64,000 nucleotides of DNA, from NCBI GenBank assembly GCA_000320605.2, contig KB445800.1, positions 1,116,056-1,180,055 of the forward strand, given 5' to 3'. Shown here in pieces: positions 31,966 through 38,718 of this stretch (position 1 is its first letter; each line of letters opens with the position of its first letter). The notes under the pieces were generated by a model. The model searched no databases and was not told where the DNA came from. It worked only from the letters and a program-made list of their open reading frames with translations. Source of the DNA: Gelatoporia subvermispora B (Eukaryota; Basidiomycota; Agaricomycetes; Polyporales; Gelatoporiaceae). Both the position numbers and the translations under genes were made by a program.

Positions 31966-33434
31966 ATGTTAGTCCTTGCGCAGTTGACTGCACTCGCTTT
32001 GCTCTTGCCGTACTGTTTGGCGTCGCCCGTTGCGTCCAGCAGCGCCAGCCTTCCTGGATCGACTTCCCGCGTCGCTGGTTTGAATGCGGTCGCGAAGGCA
32101 TCCGGGAAGCTGTACTTCGGCACTGCGACGAATGCGAACGAGTTTCAGGATGACCCAGTGTATGGCGCGATCATCAATGACACGCGGCAGTTCGGGCAGA
32201 TATCCCCTGCCAATGCTATGAAGTGGGTGCGTATACCATGCCTTTGAGAGCAATATAGCGAGTTCACCGACATCTTGCAGGAATTCACAGAGCCCAACCC
32301 CGGGAACTTCACATTCGAAGATGGAGATATAATCCGTGACCTGGCGCGGAACAATGGTCAACTTCTGAGAGGTATGACATTTGCTTCAGTTGATTATACG
32401 CGCACTCATCAGATTAATTACGGCAATCTGTTAGGTCACAATTGCGTGTGGTATATGCAGCTTCCAGACTGGATTGCGAATGGAACCTTCACATACCACG
32501 AAATGATCAACATCGTCGAAAATCACTGTGGCACGCTTGTTGGGCATTACAAGGGCGAAATGTGAGTCTTACCCACTATCTTTGCAGGCGGTGAAATCTA
32601 ATATTATGCCTTTACAGCTGTGAGTAGTATTGCGAACGATATACATCCAGACTATTACTGATCTGTAACACGATTCGACACGCACCTCAGATTCCTGGGA
32701 TGTCATTAATGGTATGTGACCACAGCCCACAATTGTCAATGTCGTGGTCTCTGATGGAGGCGCAGAATCGCTGAACGACGACGGATCATTCCGCGAGAAT
32801 GTCTTCTTCAATGCGACAGGACCAGATTACATCCCTGCAGCTCTGAGGGCTGCTCGGGCGGCAGACCCGCATGCGAAGTTGTACATCAACGACTATGGCA
32901 TCGAAGGAAGAGGTATGTATGATACTGTTCCCCCACATGTTCAGACTATATTTCAATCCGTTTGCAAGGCAACAAAACTACCGCGATTCAGAACCTCGTT
33001 CGGAAGCTCAAGTCCGAAGGCGTTCCCATTGATGGTATCGGCATCCAGAGCCATCTCACTGTGGGCCAGCTCCCAACCGATCTGGCGGAGAATTTCCAGG
33101 ACTTCGGCCGCCTTGGCGCCGAAATTGGCATCGAATTCGCAATAACAGAGATGGACATGCGCATCCTGGGCAACGTCACTGCGGAGGTACTGGAGCAACA
33201 GAAGGCAGCCTACGAGACAGTCGTCGACGCGTGTCACGCGGTGCCCGAGTGTGTGGGTGTGACTGTGTGGGACTTCACGGACAAGTATGGGTGGATCACC
33301 GATGGGCACGCAGACATTTGGGACGACGTGAGTCGCTGATGCTTCCTCGCATAATGTGGACATTGAGCACTTATACTGTGTCGAAGGATCTGCAAAAGAA
33401 GCCGGCATACGATGGTGTCGTTCTGGGCTTTTGA
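31966..33434 (+). CDS. GH10 endo-beta-1,4-xylanase, copy 1
   Basis: Secreted xylanase with no CBM. The ATG at 31966 is preferred over an upstream GTG because it starts signal peptide [19 protein letters not shown]. Exons: 31966-32226, 32281-32371, 32435-32561, a 2-nt micro-exon 32618-32619, 32691-32711, 32766-32912, 32969-33327, 33387-33434; total 1056 nt, 351 residues. Motifs: [32 protein letters not shown], then GEIYSWDVINE (catalytic acid/base Glu) created by the micro-exon, [19 protein letters not shown], and [10 protein letters not shown] (nucleophile Glu). Differences from the other copies: the intron 32913-32968 is extra, DAT is EFT, and the loop after DFTDKY is short ([13 protein letters not shown]). 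The usual WH-Q His is Tyr. Both catalytic Glu are present, so activity is expected. Confidence 0.93.
32618..32619 (+). other. 2-nt micro-exon (CT) of GH10 copy 1
   Basis: Between introns 32562-32617 (GTGAGT...TTACAG) and 32620-32690 (GTGAGT...CCTCAG). It joins GAAAT and ATTCCTGG to give E-I-Y-S-W-D-V. Skipping it shifts the frame before the catalytic Glu. Confidence 0.85.
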
Positions 33435-34303
33435 GGGTCGCTAATCCTTGACTGTCCTCGAAAACGGCCGTAGCTTCCTTATGGCTGCACGAATGGCTGC
33501 GATCGATGATACTTCTTTTTGTCCCACAATGGCATTATTTTCTCCTTAGCGTCGTCGCAACTTCAAGAATGAGCCGTATGTCCGCGAATATTGTTGTATC
33601 CACCACGCCAATCGCGTCGATCTTGTAATTCGTACCCGTATCTGAGCCTGAAAATCGATCGATACTACCTCACGGAACTCCGTCATTCTCGTAATAAACG
33701 CCAAACAGTCCGTTTGTGAGAATATGGTGAGTCTTAAATAGTCTGCGTCATGCGACATGCTCTCTGTGCGACATATCTTGTGACGGGCCGTCTGTCGCCA
33801 TGCACGTGTGGATACTTGCACCACTAAGGTGGCTCCCACCTTGTTGGGCGATCATTCCTCGACATCTCCAATCCTCAGCTTCGGTGCACGCATTCTCATG
33901 CGTCACGATCAGGTGATCTGTCCGGCCGCCACAAACGCGCGGCCTCTCATTCCACCAACTCTCTTCTCATCCTGGTACCTAGTAATAGCTCGGAGTGGTA
34001 TCACGGGGACGAGTACGTCTACTTAAGCCGTGCTCCGTGATCGGCATGGTGGATGCTGCGAGGGCTTTCCTCTCAGAGAGTCGAATTTAGCTCTTGGGTG
34101 GTGCCTGCATTTGCACATCTGACCTCCTCGACGCAACTGGCATGTAGCAATGGACATCTCAAGACATTCCGACAATGTATTTATGCACTCTTTATTGAGT
34201 CCGCCACCGCAGCAAGCATTATAAAGGTCGAGCGATACTCAAATTCTTGACACAGTTGTCTTTGTATCATTATATTGGTCGTGGCTTAGAACATTCGTCG
34301 ACG
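33435..34303. other. Intergenic and xylanase 2 promoter
   Basis: No gene seen. TATAAA is at 34220-34225, about 80 bp before the start codon; an inverted repeat shared with the xylanase 3 promoter is listed separately. Confidence 0.5.
33907..33918 (+). promoter_or_regulatory. Inverted repeat GATCAGGTGATC, xylanase 2 promoter
   Basis: GATCA and TGATC arms with a 2 bp spacer, 397 bp upstream of the ATG. The same 12 bp occurs 378 bp upstream of xylanase 3, with further similarity to the right (CCGSNCCGCCACARACGCG). Could be a regulator site or simply conserved duplicate sequence. Confidence 0.4.
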
Positions 34304-37307: not shown

Positions 37308-38718
37308 ATGTACTCAGTTGCGAGGTTCTTGGTCTTTGCCATCGTAAGCGTTGCGGCCGCAGCGTCTCCCTTGGCGTCTGCCTCGAGCAGCTCGGCTTTC
37401 CCCGGCTCCACCGCTAAAGTTCCGGGGTTGAACGCGGTCGCGAACGCTGCAGGGAAACTCTACTTCGGAACTGCAACAGATAACCCCGAGCTCAATGACA
37501 CGGCGTATACCACAATCCTGGATAACAACAGACAGTTCGGACAAATTACGCCGGCGAATAGCATGAAATGGGTAACATATTTCGAGTTATGTTAAGGATA
37601 GCTAAACTCACCAGTTACATGCAGGACGCAACGGAGCCCAACCCGGGTAATTTCACCTTCGAGGGCGGTGATGTCATTCGGGACCTCGCCAGGCGCAATG
37701 GCCAAATTCTGCGAGGTGGGTCCGTGTGTTGGGAGGCCTTACTGTATATAGCGGTGCTGATGATCGAGAAAGGACATAACTGTGTTTGGTACAGTCAGCT
37801 ACCAGATTGGGTTGCCTTTGGCAACTTCACCTTCGACGAATTGATCGGCATTGTCGAAAACCACTGTGGCACGCTCGTGGGACACTACAGGGGACAAATG
37901 TGAGTATGACAACAAATATGCTCTGGACGACCCGTTGATATCTGGTTGCTGTAGATGTACGTGCGAGTTTACTGATATGCGGCTGTCGCTGAGTTCGATA
38001 CTGATGCATCCCCTCTGTTGCAGATGCCTGGGACGTGATTAATGGTAGATCTAACAGTTTCGTGACCATGGACCTGGCACTCACATTAGTTGGTCCCCAG
38101 AGGCGTTTAACGACGACGGAACCTTCCGCCAGGACGTGTTCTTCAACGTGACGGGCACCGCCTACATCCCCGCTGCGCTGCGGGCTGCGCGCCAGGCCGA
38201 CCCGCACGCCAAGCTGTACATCAACGACTACAACACCGAGGGAACGGGCAACAAATCCACCGCGCTGCAGAACCTCATCAAGGAGCTGAAACGCGACGGG
38301 GTCCCGATCGACGGCGTCGGGTTCCAGTGCCACTTCGAGGTCGGCGGCGTGCCCACGACGCTCGTCGAGAACTTCCGCGCGTACGAGGCGCTCGGCGTCG
38401 AGTTCGCGGTCACGGAGCTCGACGTGCGCATGACGCTCCCCGAGACGGACGCGCTGCTCGAGCAGCAGAAGAAGGACTACCAGAGCGTCATCGATGCGTG
38501 CATGGCCGTCCCCGCGTGCGTCGGCGTCACGATTTGGGACTTCACGGATAAGTATTCGTGGGTGCCAGGAGCGTTCCCTGGGTGGGGGGCGGCTGATCCA
38601 TGGGACGAGGTGAGCTGCTTGCACTGTAGTCTGGTGGATGTGCTCAGGCCCGCTATCGTAGAACCTCGTCAAGAAGCCTGCATACGACGGGATCGTTATC
38701 GGATTCGAAGATCGGTGA
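37308..38718 (+). CDS. GH10 endo-beta-1,4-xylanase, copy 3
   Basis: Secreted xylanase, 356 residues; signal peptide [20 protein letters not shown]. Exons: 37308-37571, 37625-37715, 37773-37899, micro-exon 37955-37956, 38024-38044, 38101-38609, 38662-38718; total 1071 nt. Motifs: [34 protein letters not shown] (Tyr in place of the usual His), GQIYAWDVINE with the acid/base Glu, [19 protein letters not shown] (Cys for the usual Ser/Thr), [10 protein letters not shown] with the nucleophile Glu, [19 protein letters not shown]. The 3' half from about 38100 is far richer in G+C at third codon positions than the other copies, so the two halves may have different histories (gene conversion or strong expression bias). 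No CBM. Confidence 0.95.
37955..37956 (+). other. 2-nt micro-exon (AT) of GH10 copy 3
   Basis: Between introns 37900-37954 (GTGAGT...CTGTAG) and 37957-38023 (GTACGT...TTGCAG). It joins CAAAT and ATGCCTGG to give Q-I-Y-A-W-D-V. Confidence 0.85.

Follow-up and report, generated by a model that had tools for sequence, protein, structure and literature searches.

Exons of a single nucleotide (nt) have been described in plants and in a fungus. APC11 of Arabidopsis has a 1-nt exon, for which a combination of intron definition and recursive splicing was proposed (PMC4674806), and exons of this size were reported in plant APC11 and VPS55 (PMC8831610). In Fusarium, CYP621A has a 1-nt exon with SRA reads, which its authors present as the first such exon of a fungal gene, and the same paper refers to Arabidopsis, Drosophila and human exons of 2-5 bp (PMC12940212). 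The P450 genes of Phanerochaete chrysosporium have exons down to 6 bp (PMC1184071). Here we describe an internal exon of 2 nt in the GH10 xylanase genes of the white-rot fungus Gelatoporia subvermispora B (Polyporales, Agaricomycetes), initially noticed in three tandem genes of a 64,000-nt stretch of contig KB445800.1, which is the window in the text below. We are highly confident that it is a constitutive exon of the GH10 genes of this fungus, and probably of those of many Agaricomycetes.

The GH10 micro-exon resembles those of APC11 and VPS55 in being a near-zero exon between two introns, required by the frame, apparently long conserved and missing from annotations. The plant exons differ in having one base and in being proven by cDNA, reverse-transcription PCR (RT-PCR) or RNA-seq, while the GH10 exon has two bases, belongs to a secreted-enzyme family of a basidiomycete and is known from DNA. 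The CYP621A exon is also fungal, was also deduced from frame and motif conservation, also lies within a conserved motif, and nearly all deposited transcripts are wrong there according to the authors (PMC12940212). However, it is an ascomycete exon of a single G, followed across orthologues of different species and confirmed by SRA reads, whereas the GH10 exon has two bases, the first of them free, in six paralogues of one genome. The P450 genes of P. chrysosporium share the Agaricomycete host, the tiny exons and the many short introns, but the shortest exon reported there has 6 bp, which corresponds to two whole codons (PMC1184071). The micro-exon joins a known kind, the ultra-short exons, and the preliminary description of the window went too far in placing 2 nt near the lower limit of splicing, as 1-nt exons were already published (PMC4674806, PMC12940212). 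What makes it interesting is how well it is conserved, that it adjoins the catalytic motif and that it damages annotation. In the open-licence literature we recognised no 2-nt exon in a fungal GH10 gene, which may be in print elsewhere; Decelle and co-workers reportedly cloned xylanases of P. chrysosporium.

The models of the three tandem genes, X1, X2 and X3, were rebuilt from the DNA and have the following parts, in positions of the window:

31966 to 33434, forward strand: X1, GH10 xylanase gene, rebuilt model with 8 exons and 351 aa, PF00331 matches over the cut-off
32435 to 32561, forward strand: X1 127-nt exon before the micro-exon, which stops two bases into a codon (GAA AT)
32562 to 32617, forward strand: X1 left intron, 56 nt, GTGAGT...ACAG, with a branch-like CTAAT
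32618 to 32619, forward strand: X1 micro-exon CT, giving AT/C T/AT, predicted Ile-Tyr
32620 to 32690, forward strand: X1 right intron, 71 nt, GTGAGT...TCAG
32691 to 32711, forward strand: X1 21-nt exon, coding for SWDVIN, with the catalytic Glu codon split at the 3' end of the exon
34304 to 35734, forward strand: X2, GH10 xylanase gene, rebuilt model with 7 exons and 355 aa, PF00331 matches over the cut-off
34774 to 34900, forward strand: X2 127-nt exon before the micro-exon, from the rebuilt model
34901 to 34963, forward strand: X2 left intron, 63 nt, GTGAGT...ACAG
34964 to 34965, forward strand: X2 micro-exon GT, giving AT/G T/AT, predicted Met-Tyr; the deposited model P0004 differs only here
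34966 to 35038, forward strand: X2 right intron, 73 nt, GTATGT...ACAG
35039 to 35059, forward strand: X2 21-nt exon, coding for AWDVIN
37308 to 38718, forward strand: X3, GH10 xylanase gene, rebuilt model with 7 exons and 356 aa, PF00331 matches over the cut-off
37773 to 37899, forward strand: X3 127-nt exon before the micro-exon, from the rebuilt model
37900 to 37954, forward strand: X3 left intron, 55 nt, GTGAGT...GTAG
37955 to 37956, forward strand: X3 micro-exon AT, giving AT/A T/AT, predicted Ile-Tyr
37957 to 38023, forward strand: X3 right intron, 67 nt, GTACGT...GCAG
38024 to 38044, forward strand: X3 21-nt exon, coding for AWDVIN

The exons measure 261/91/127/2/21/147/359/48 nt in X1 (1056 nt in total), 264/91/127/2/21/509/54 nt in X2 (1068 nt) and 264/91/127/2/21/509/57 nt in X3 (1071 nt), and the three translations have no internal stops. 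The 2-nt exons, their coordinates and bases, the coding totals and the exon run 91/127/2/21 had all been given before and were reproduced in the rebuilt models, as were the six GT-AG flanking introns of 55-73 nt (56 and 71 nt in X1, 63 and 73 nt in X2, 55 and 67 nt in X3). Around the micro-exon, the translated stretches are GHYKGEIYSWDVINE in X1, GHYTGQMYAWDVINE in X2 and GHYRGQIYAWDVINE in X3. The loss of frame claimed for copies lacking the two bases was also observed, with a stop found 6, 42 and 6 codons later in X1, X2 and X3, respectively.

A Pfam GH10 search of the genome returned 21 exon-level matches, grouped as at least 6 genes, a lower bound since the best candidates were scored. Beyond the window there is one gene on contig C27 (C27) and two on contig C14 (C14a and C14b). 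The six proteins are 55-94% identical to each other, and all the translations contain WDVINE or WDVVNE, plus ITEMD, ITELD or VTELD; we take WDV[VI]NE to carry the acid/base Glu and the TE[LM]D motif to carry the nucleophile Glu. With the PF00331 matches and these motifs, the six genes are predicted GH10 endo-1,4-beta-xylanases. The 2-nt exon was found in all of them: CT (X1), GT (X2), AT (X3), TT (C27), CT (C14a) and TT (C14b). Its first base (C, G, A, T, C, T) is the third codon position of Ile, Met, Ile, Val, Pro and Pro, and the second is T in the six genes, opening the Tyr codon. A free first base followed by an invariant T is the pattern that would be expected of coding bases. The conservation first claimed for the three tandem genes is true of them, but the scope was too narrow, as this is a feature of six genes, and one that is probably widespread among Agaricomycetes.

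Other aspects of gene structure vary among the copies. The exon located 3' of the micro-exon has only 21 nt in the six genes, so that two micro-exons adjoin, jointly coding for most of YxWDV[VI]N. There is an intron after MKW in five GH10 genes, not in C14b (L010 reverse complement, 4714-5026), while both introns flanking the micro-exon are present in 6/6. X1 has an intron at 32913-32968 that is absent from X2 and X3 (exons of 147 and 359 nt versus one of 509 nt); C27 and both C14 genes likewise have an intron after a 147-nt exon.

For each gene, we tried the parses with one or two introns of at least 40 nt. Donors were GT or GC, taken from the last 30 nt of the 127-nt exon onward, and the AG acceptors could lie as far as a few bases inside the 21-nt exon. 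This resulted in 86, 159, 59, 156, 64 and 100 parses, the unspliced one included, for X1, X2, X3, C27, C14a and C14b, respectively, of which 3, 2, 1, 2, 2 and 3 are open, reach WDV[VI]N and keep the homologous length. Among these, exactly one per gene yields Y[AS]WDV[VI]N, and in the six genes it is the one with the 2-nt exon. The proposal that the two bases complete Ile/Met-Tyr before WDVINE is thus matched, in every gene, by the sole canonical parse tried that has both the homologous length and Tyr. Single-intron parses with canonical ends kept this length in none of the six genes; open single-intron parses at other lengths number 1, 1, 0, 4, 4 and 5, in the same gene order. The spliceosomal twin introns (stwintrons) of fungi, where an internal intron splits an external one with no exonic base between, are similar in having two adjacent short introns removed consecutively, but the GH10 introns must leave two bases for the frame. 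With 0 bases between the introns, a frameshift and a stop result in 6/6 genes, and we rejected this candidate.

Splice signals were compared among all the introns of the six models, 44 out of 44 of them GT-AG, including the 12 beside the micro-exon. These 12 flanking introns have 52-73 nt, and the 32 others 49-71 nt, with a median of 56. The intron-side donor scores of the flanking introns lie between the 44th and the 100th percentile of the 32 others (11 of 12 at or above the 59th), the acceptor scores between the 28th and the 97th, and a branch-like motif (YTRAB) is present in 11/12 against 22/32. On the intron side, the signals at the micro-exon are no weaker than those of the 32 other introns. 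In a chance test with 5000 dinucleotide-preserving shuffles of each composite intron, requiring an intron of at least 45 nt on each side of the core, YAG-NN-GTRNGT occurred in 3, 27, 7, 14, 5 and 3 shuffles (X1, X2, X3, C27, C14a and C14b) and in 6/6 real sequences, figures that are not independent probabilities, since the strict pattern was picked post hoc and the six genes are related. The bare AG-NN-GT occurred in 325-972 of 5000. We also considered, and rejected, that one flanking intron arose as a duplicate of the other, as the left-versus-right score was reached in 240, 273, 50, 24, 32 and 159 of 300 shuffles, and the likeness is unconvincing.

We suggest that one codon would take its third base from the micro-exon and that the next, coding for the Tyr located two residues upstream of WDV[VI]NE, would take its first. 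With ordinary size and signals, either flanking intron is probably recognised as a whole, by intron definition. Their removal is probably sequential, since the left acceptor and the right donor are two bases apart and the factors would collide. Exon skipping would need one intron of 114-138 nt, the distance between the outer splice sites, which is longer than any of the 32 other introns, and would destroy the frame.

Deposited proteins of this strain were found for 4 of the 6 genes: P0004 (X2), P0102 (C27), P0099 (C14a) and P0021 (C14b). P0004 has other residues where the X2 model has GQMYAWDVINEPFND, P0102 lacks only Tyr-Ser compared with the C27 model, and P0099 has Ser in place of the Tyr of C14a plus 17 extra residues, traced to the right intron. 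P0021 is identical to the C14b model over 401 aa. Outside the micro-exon site, there are no further differences over the 356, 377, 297 and 401 positions compared (P0004, P0102, P0099 and P0021). Since all other junctions agree and three of the four models fail only at the micro-exon, this is the only junction that was mis-called. For X1 and X3, neither search had a deposited protein of this strain among its best 120 matches, the closest entries being 85% and 89% identical, and in the deposited gene set both genes may lack an annotation or have a badly broken one.

Two protein searches, with 3437 and 1566 matches, supplied their best 120 each, and together these make up the 163 distinct homologous proteins investigated, four of them from this strain. 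Sorted by motif, the canonical length is found in 105, whereas 25 are two residues short (e.g. HYKGQVWDV), 25 show other lengths or forms and 8 have no WD[VI][VI]NE; Tyr is absent in 7 of the 105. Insertions and deletions (indels) were also counted by alignment, in six-residue windows over residues 50 to 344 of X3. At the micro-exon (residues 161-162) there are indels in 51/163 homologues, with 50 at residues 160 and 163, and the next-highest place away from the site has 11. Mis-calling by gene callers had been anticipated for this site, and it is seen both here and in three of the four deposited models of the strain. Within six residues of two ordinary junctions, indels were found in 3/163 and 0/163, while the IN/E junction, seven residues on, has 30 in the wider window, which overlaps the micro-exon site, and 3 in the narrow one. 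A PDB sequence was used to find 120 ascomycete-type relatives, only one of which has an indel at the micro-exon site; 12 of these proteins missed the motif expression, 11 with WDVANE at normal length and one without the stretch. The 51 indel models include Agaricales (P0087, Crucibulum laeve), Hymenochaetales (P0085, Coniferiporia weirii), Russulales (P0134, Gloeopeniophorella convolvens), Gloeophyllales (P0162, Heliocybe sulcata) and Polyporales, e.g. P0099 and P0102 of this strain (two of the 51). This distribution suggests that the micro-exon is old and widespread in Agaricomycetes, presumably being present in the DNA of these species.

Some homologues are on short contigs with the source labels lgn or jgi. 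Five of them (P0005, P0076, P0095, P0105 and P0161) are on contigs just 118-210 nt longer than the coding sequence, which we consider transcript-like because this surplus could not accommodate the introns of the complete models, which number at least six and measure no less than 49 nt each, and [VI]Y[AS]WD is present in 5/5. Among the 13 listed homologues on short contigs, 11 have [VIM]Y[AS]WD at normal length, and the two off the motif, P0149 and P0074, are on contigs roomy enough for introns. P0003, 89% identical to X3 and on a contig of 1173 nt with room for introns, has GEIYAWDVINE. As an intronless yardstick, the best 80 of 568 relatives from prokaryote genomes, all bacterial by title, were aligned pairwise: 62/80 are gap-free across the stretch, 18/80 are two residues longer and none is shorter. 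These lengths fit the predicted inclusion of the two bases and oppose the form that is two residues short. No relatives were found in viral contigs, and the PDB search gave no match nameable as basidiomycete.

A second and weaker cluster of indels was observed at residues 277-281 of X3 (11/163) and at residues 242-246 of the ascomycete query (11/120). It perhaps reflects natural loop length.

The micro-exon could also be a regulated on/off switch, where conditional skipping or intron retention leads to a premature stop and gates xylanase output, but we find this improbable. Every mis-splicing product tried (exon skipped, left intron kept or right intron kept) has a premature stop in 6/6 genes, with an immediate in-frame TGA in 5/6 when the left intron is kept, because the donor GTGA is in phase. 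Such a stop would be expected of any frame-changing exon, and the ordinary to strong intron-side signals, together with the short introns, suit constitutive use. A micro-exon switch has been reported in a fungus, for Xlr2 of Trichoderma (PMC11121469). Regulation is possible, and nothing in these data demands it. We are similarly doubtful about a broader scenario in which the micro-exon arose once before the diversification of Agaricomycetes, was kept in nearly all their GH10 genes and persists because splicing at the catalytic motif obligatorily takes two steps, which would gate xylanase output via unproductive splicing.

Less probable still, and very unlikely in our evaluation, is a single long intron, two bases shorter than the stretch of 114-138 nt, whose donor would be a non-canonical GA located two bases 3' of the usual donor. 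The GT of the usual donor would then stay in the mRNA (AT/GT/AT, Met-Tyr), without any micro-exon. Such a GA-AG intron preserves the frame and the Tyr in 6/6 genes and requires no second donor or acceptor, but GA-AG is not a regular intron class. It leaves unexplained the YAG-NT-GTRNGT core, found at the right place in six otherwise diverged introns (1-19 of 5000 shuffles each), as well as the constant T at the second base (six T's have a probability of ~1e-3 at the intron base frequency of 0.323, if the genes are independent). In addition, it forces Met at codons starting with AT, while the residue before Tyr is Ile in 24 and Met in 12 of the 105 canonical-length homologues, and is also Ile in the transcript-like P0095 and P0105, an argument that would extend to X1 and X3 by analogy. 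The predicted mRNA strings of X1 are GGCGAAATCTATTCCTGG with the micro-exon, GGCGAAATATTCCTGG when it is skipped and GGCGAAATGTATTCCTGG with the single GA-AG intron; those of X3 are GGACAAATATATGCCTGG, GGACAAATATGCCTGG and GGACAAATGTATGCCTGG, respectively. The strings AAATCTATTCC in X1 and AAATATATGCC in X3 would be incompatible with a GA-AG intron.

Some points weigh against a constitutive 2-nt exon. It predicts the same mRNA as the GA-AG intron in X2, since the micro-exon of this gene is itself GT, and the same protein in C27, C14a and C14b. For this reason the identical P0021 cannot separate the two and is uninformative there, the C14b protein being the same in both cases. With the exon bases included, the scores of the left acceptors are 1.4, 5.8, 5.6, 2.3, -0.4 and 0.6; the other introns average 5.1 (lowest of -1.9), which leaves 4/6 below average. 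The right intron of C14b has no branch-like YTRAB motif, although 10/32 other introns also have none. We infer the inclusion of the exon in G. subvermispora mRNA from genomic DNA, and its suggested spread to other species comes from protein models, which are themselves predictions.

Skipping of the two bases, or use of a nearby acceptor, to give a protein without Tyr-x before WDV is hardly credible: this form (HYKGQVWDV type) does occur in the deposited C27 model and 24 more, i.e. 25/163 homologous models, and in C27 a legal single GT-AG intron via an AG inside the next exon gives it, but C27 is the only one of six genes where a single intron loses exactly two residues, the open single-intron readings of the other five lose three or seven residues or gain one to ten, mostly with GC or in-exon donors, plain skipping brings a stop 6-42 codons downstream in 6/6, and no gap is seen at the site in the five PDB alignments displayed, nor a shorter form in the 80 bacterial relatives.

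If confirmed by RNA, this would be a 2-nt exon of Basidiomycota that all the GH10 genes found in one genome share and that, judging from the annotation errors, many species of the class probably have as well. It would then be a natural test bed, old and present in multiple copies, for studying what the spliceosome does with an exon whose size does not allow exon definition. About one third of the homologous models examined are altered beside the catalytic motif, which concerns the cloning of industrial enzymes from predicted genes and the counting of active carbohydrate-active enzymes (CAZymes).

Upstream of two of the tandem genes, the 12-mer GATCAGGTGATC is found at 33907-33918 and 36930-36941, that is, 385 and 366 bases 5' of the start codons of X2 and X3, both copies being followed by CCGCCACANACGCG as seen by eye. 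The window has no further match at up to 1 mismatch, yet two matches occur in 14/100 shuffles. This 12-mer is possibly a promoter element common to X2 and X3.

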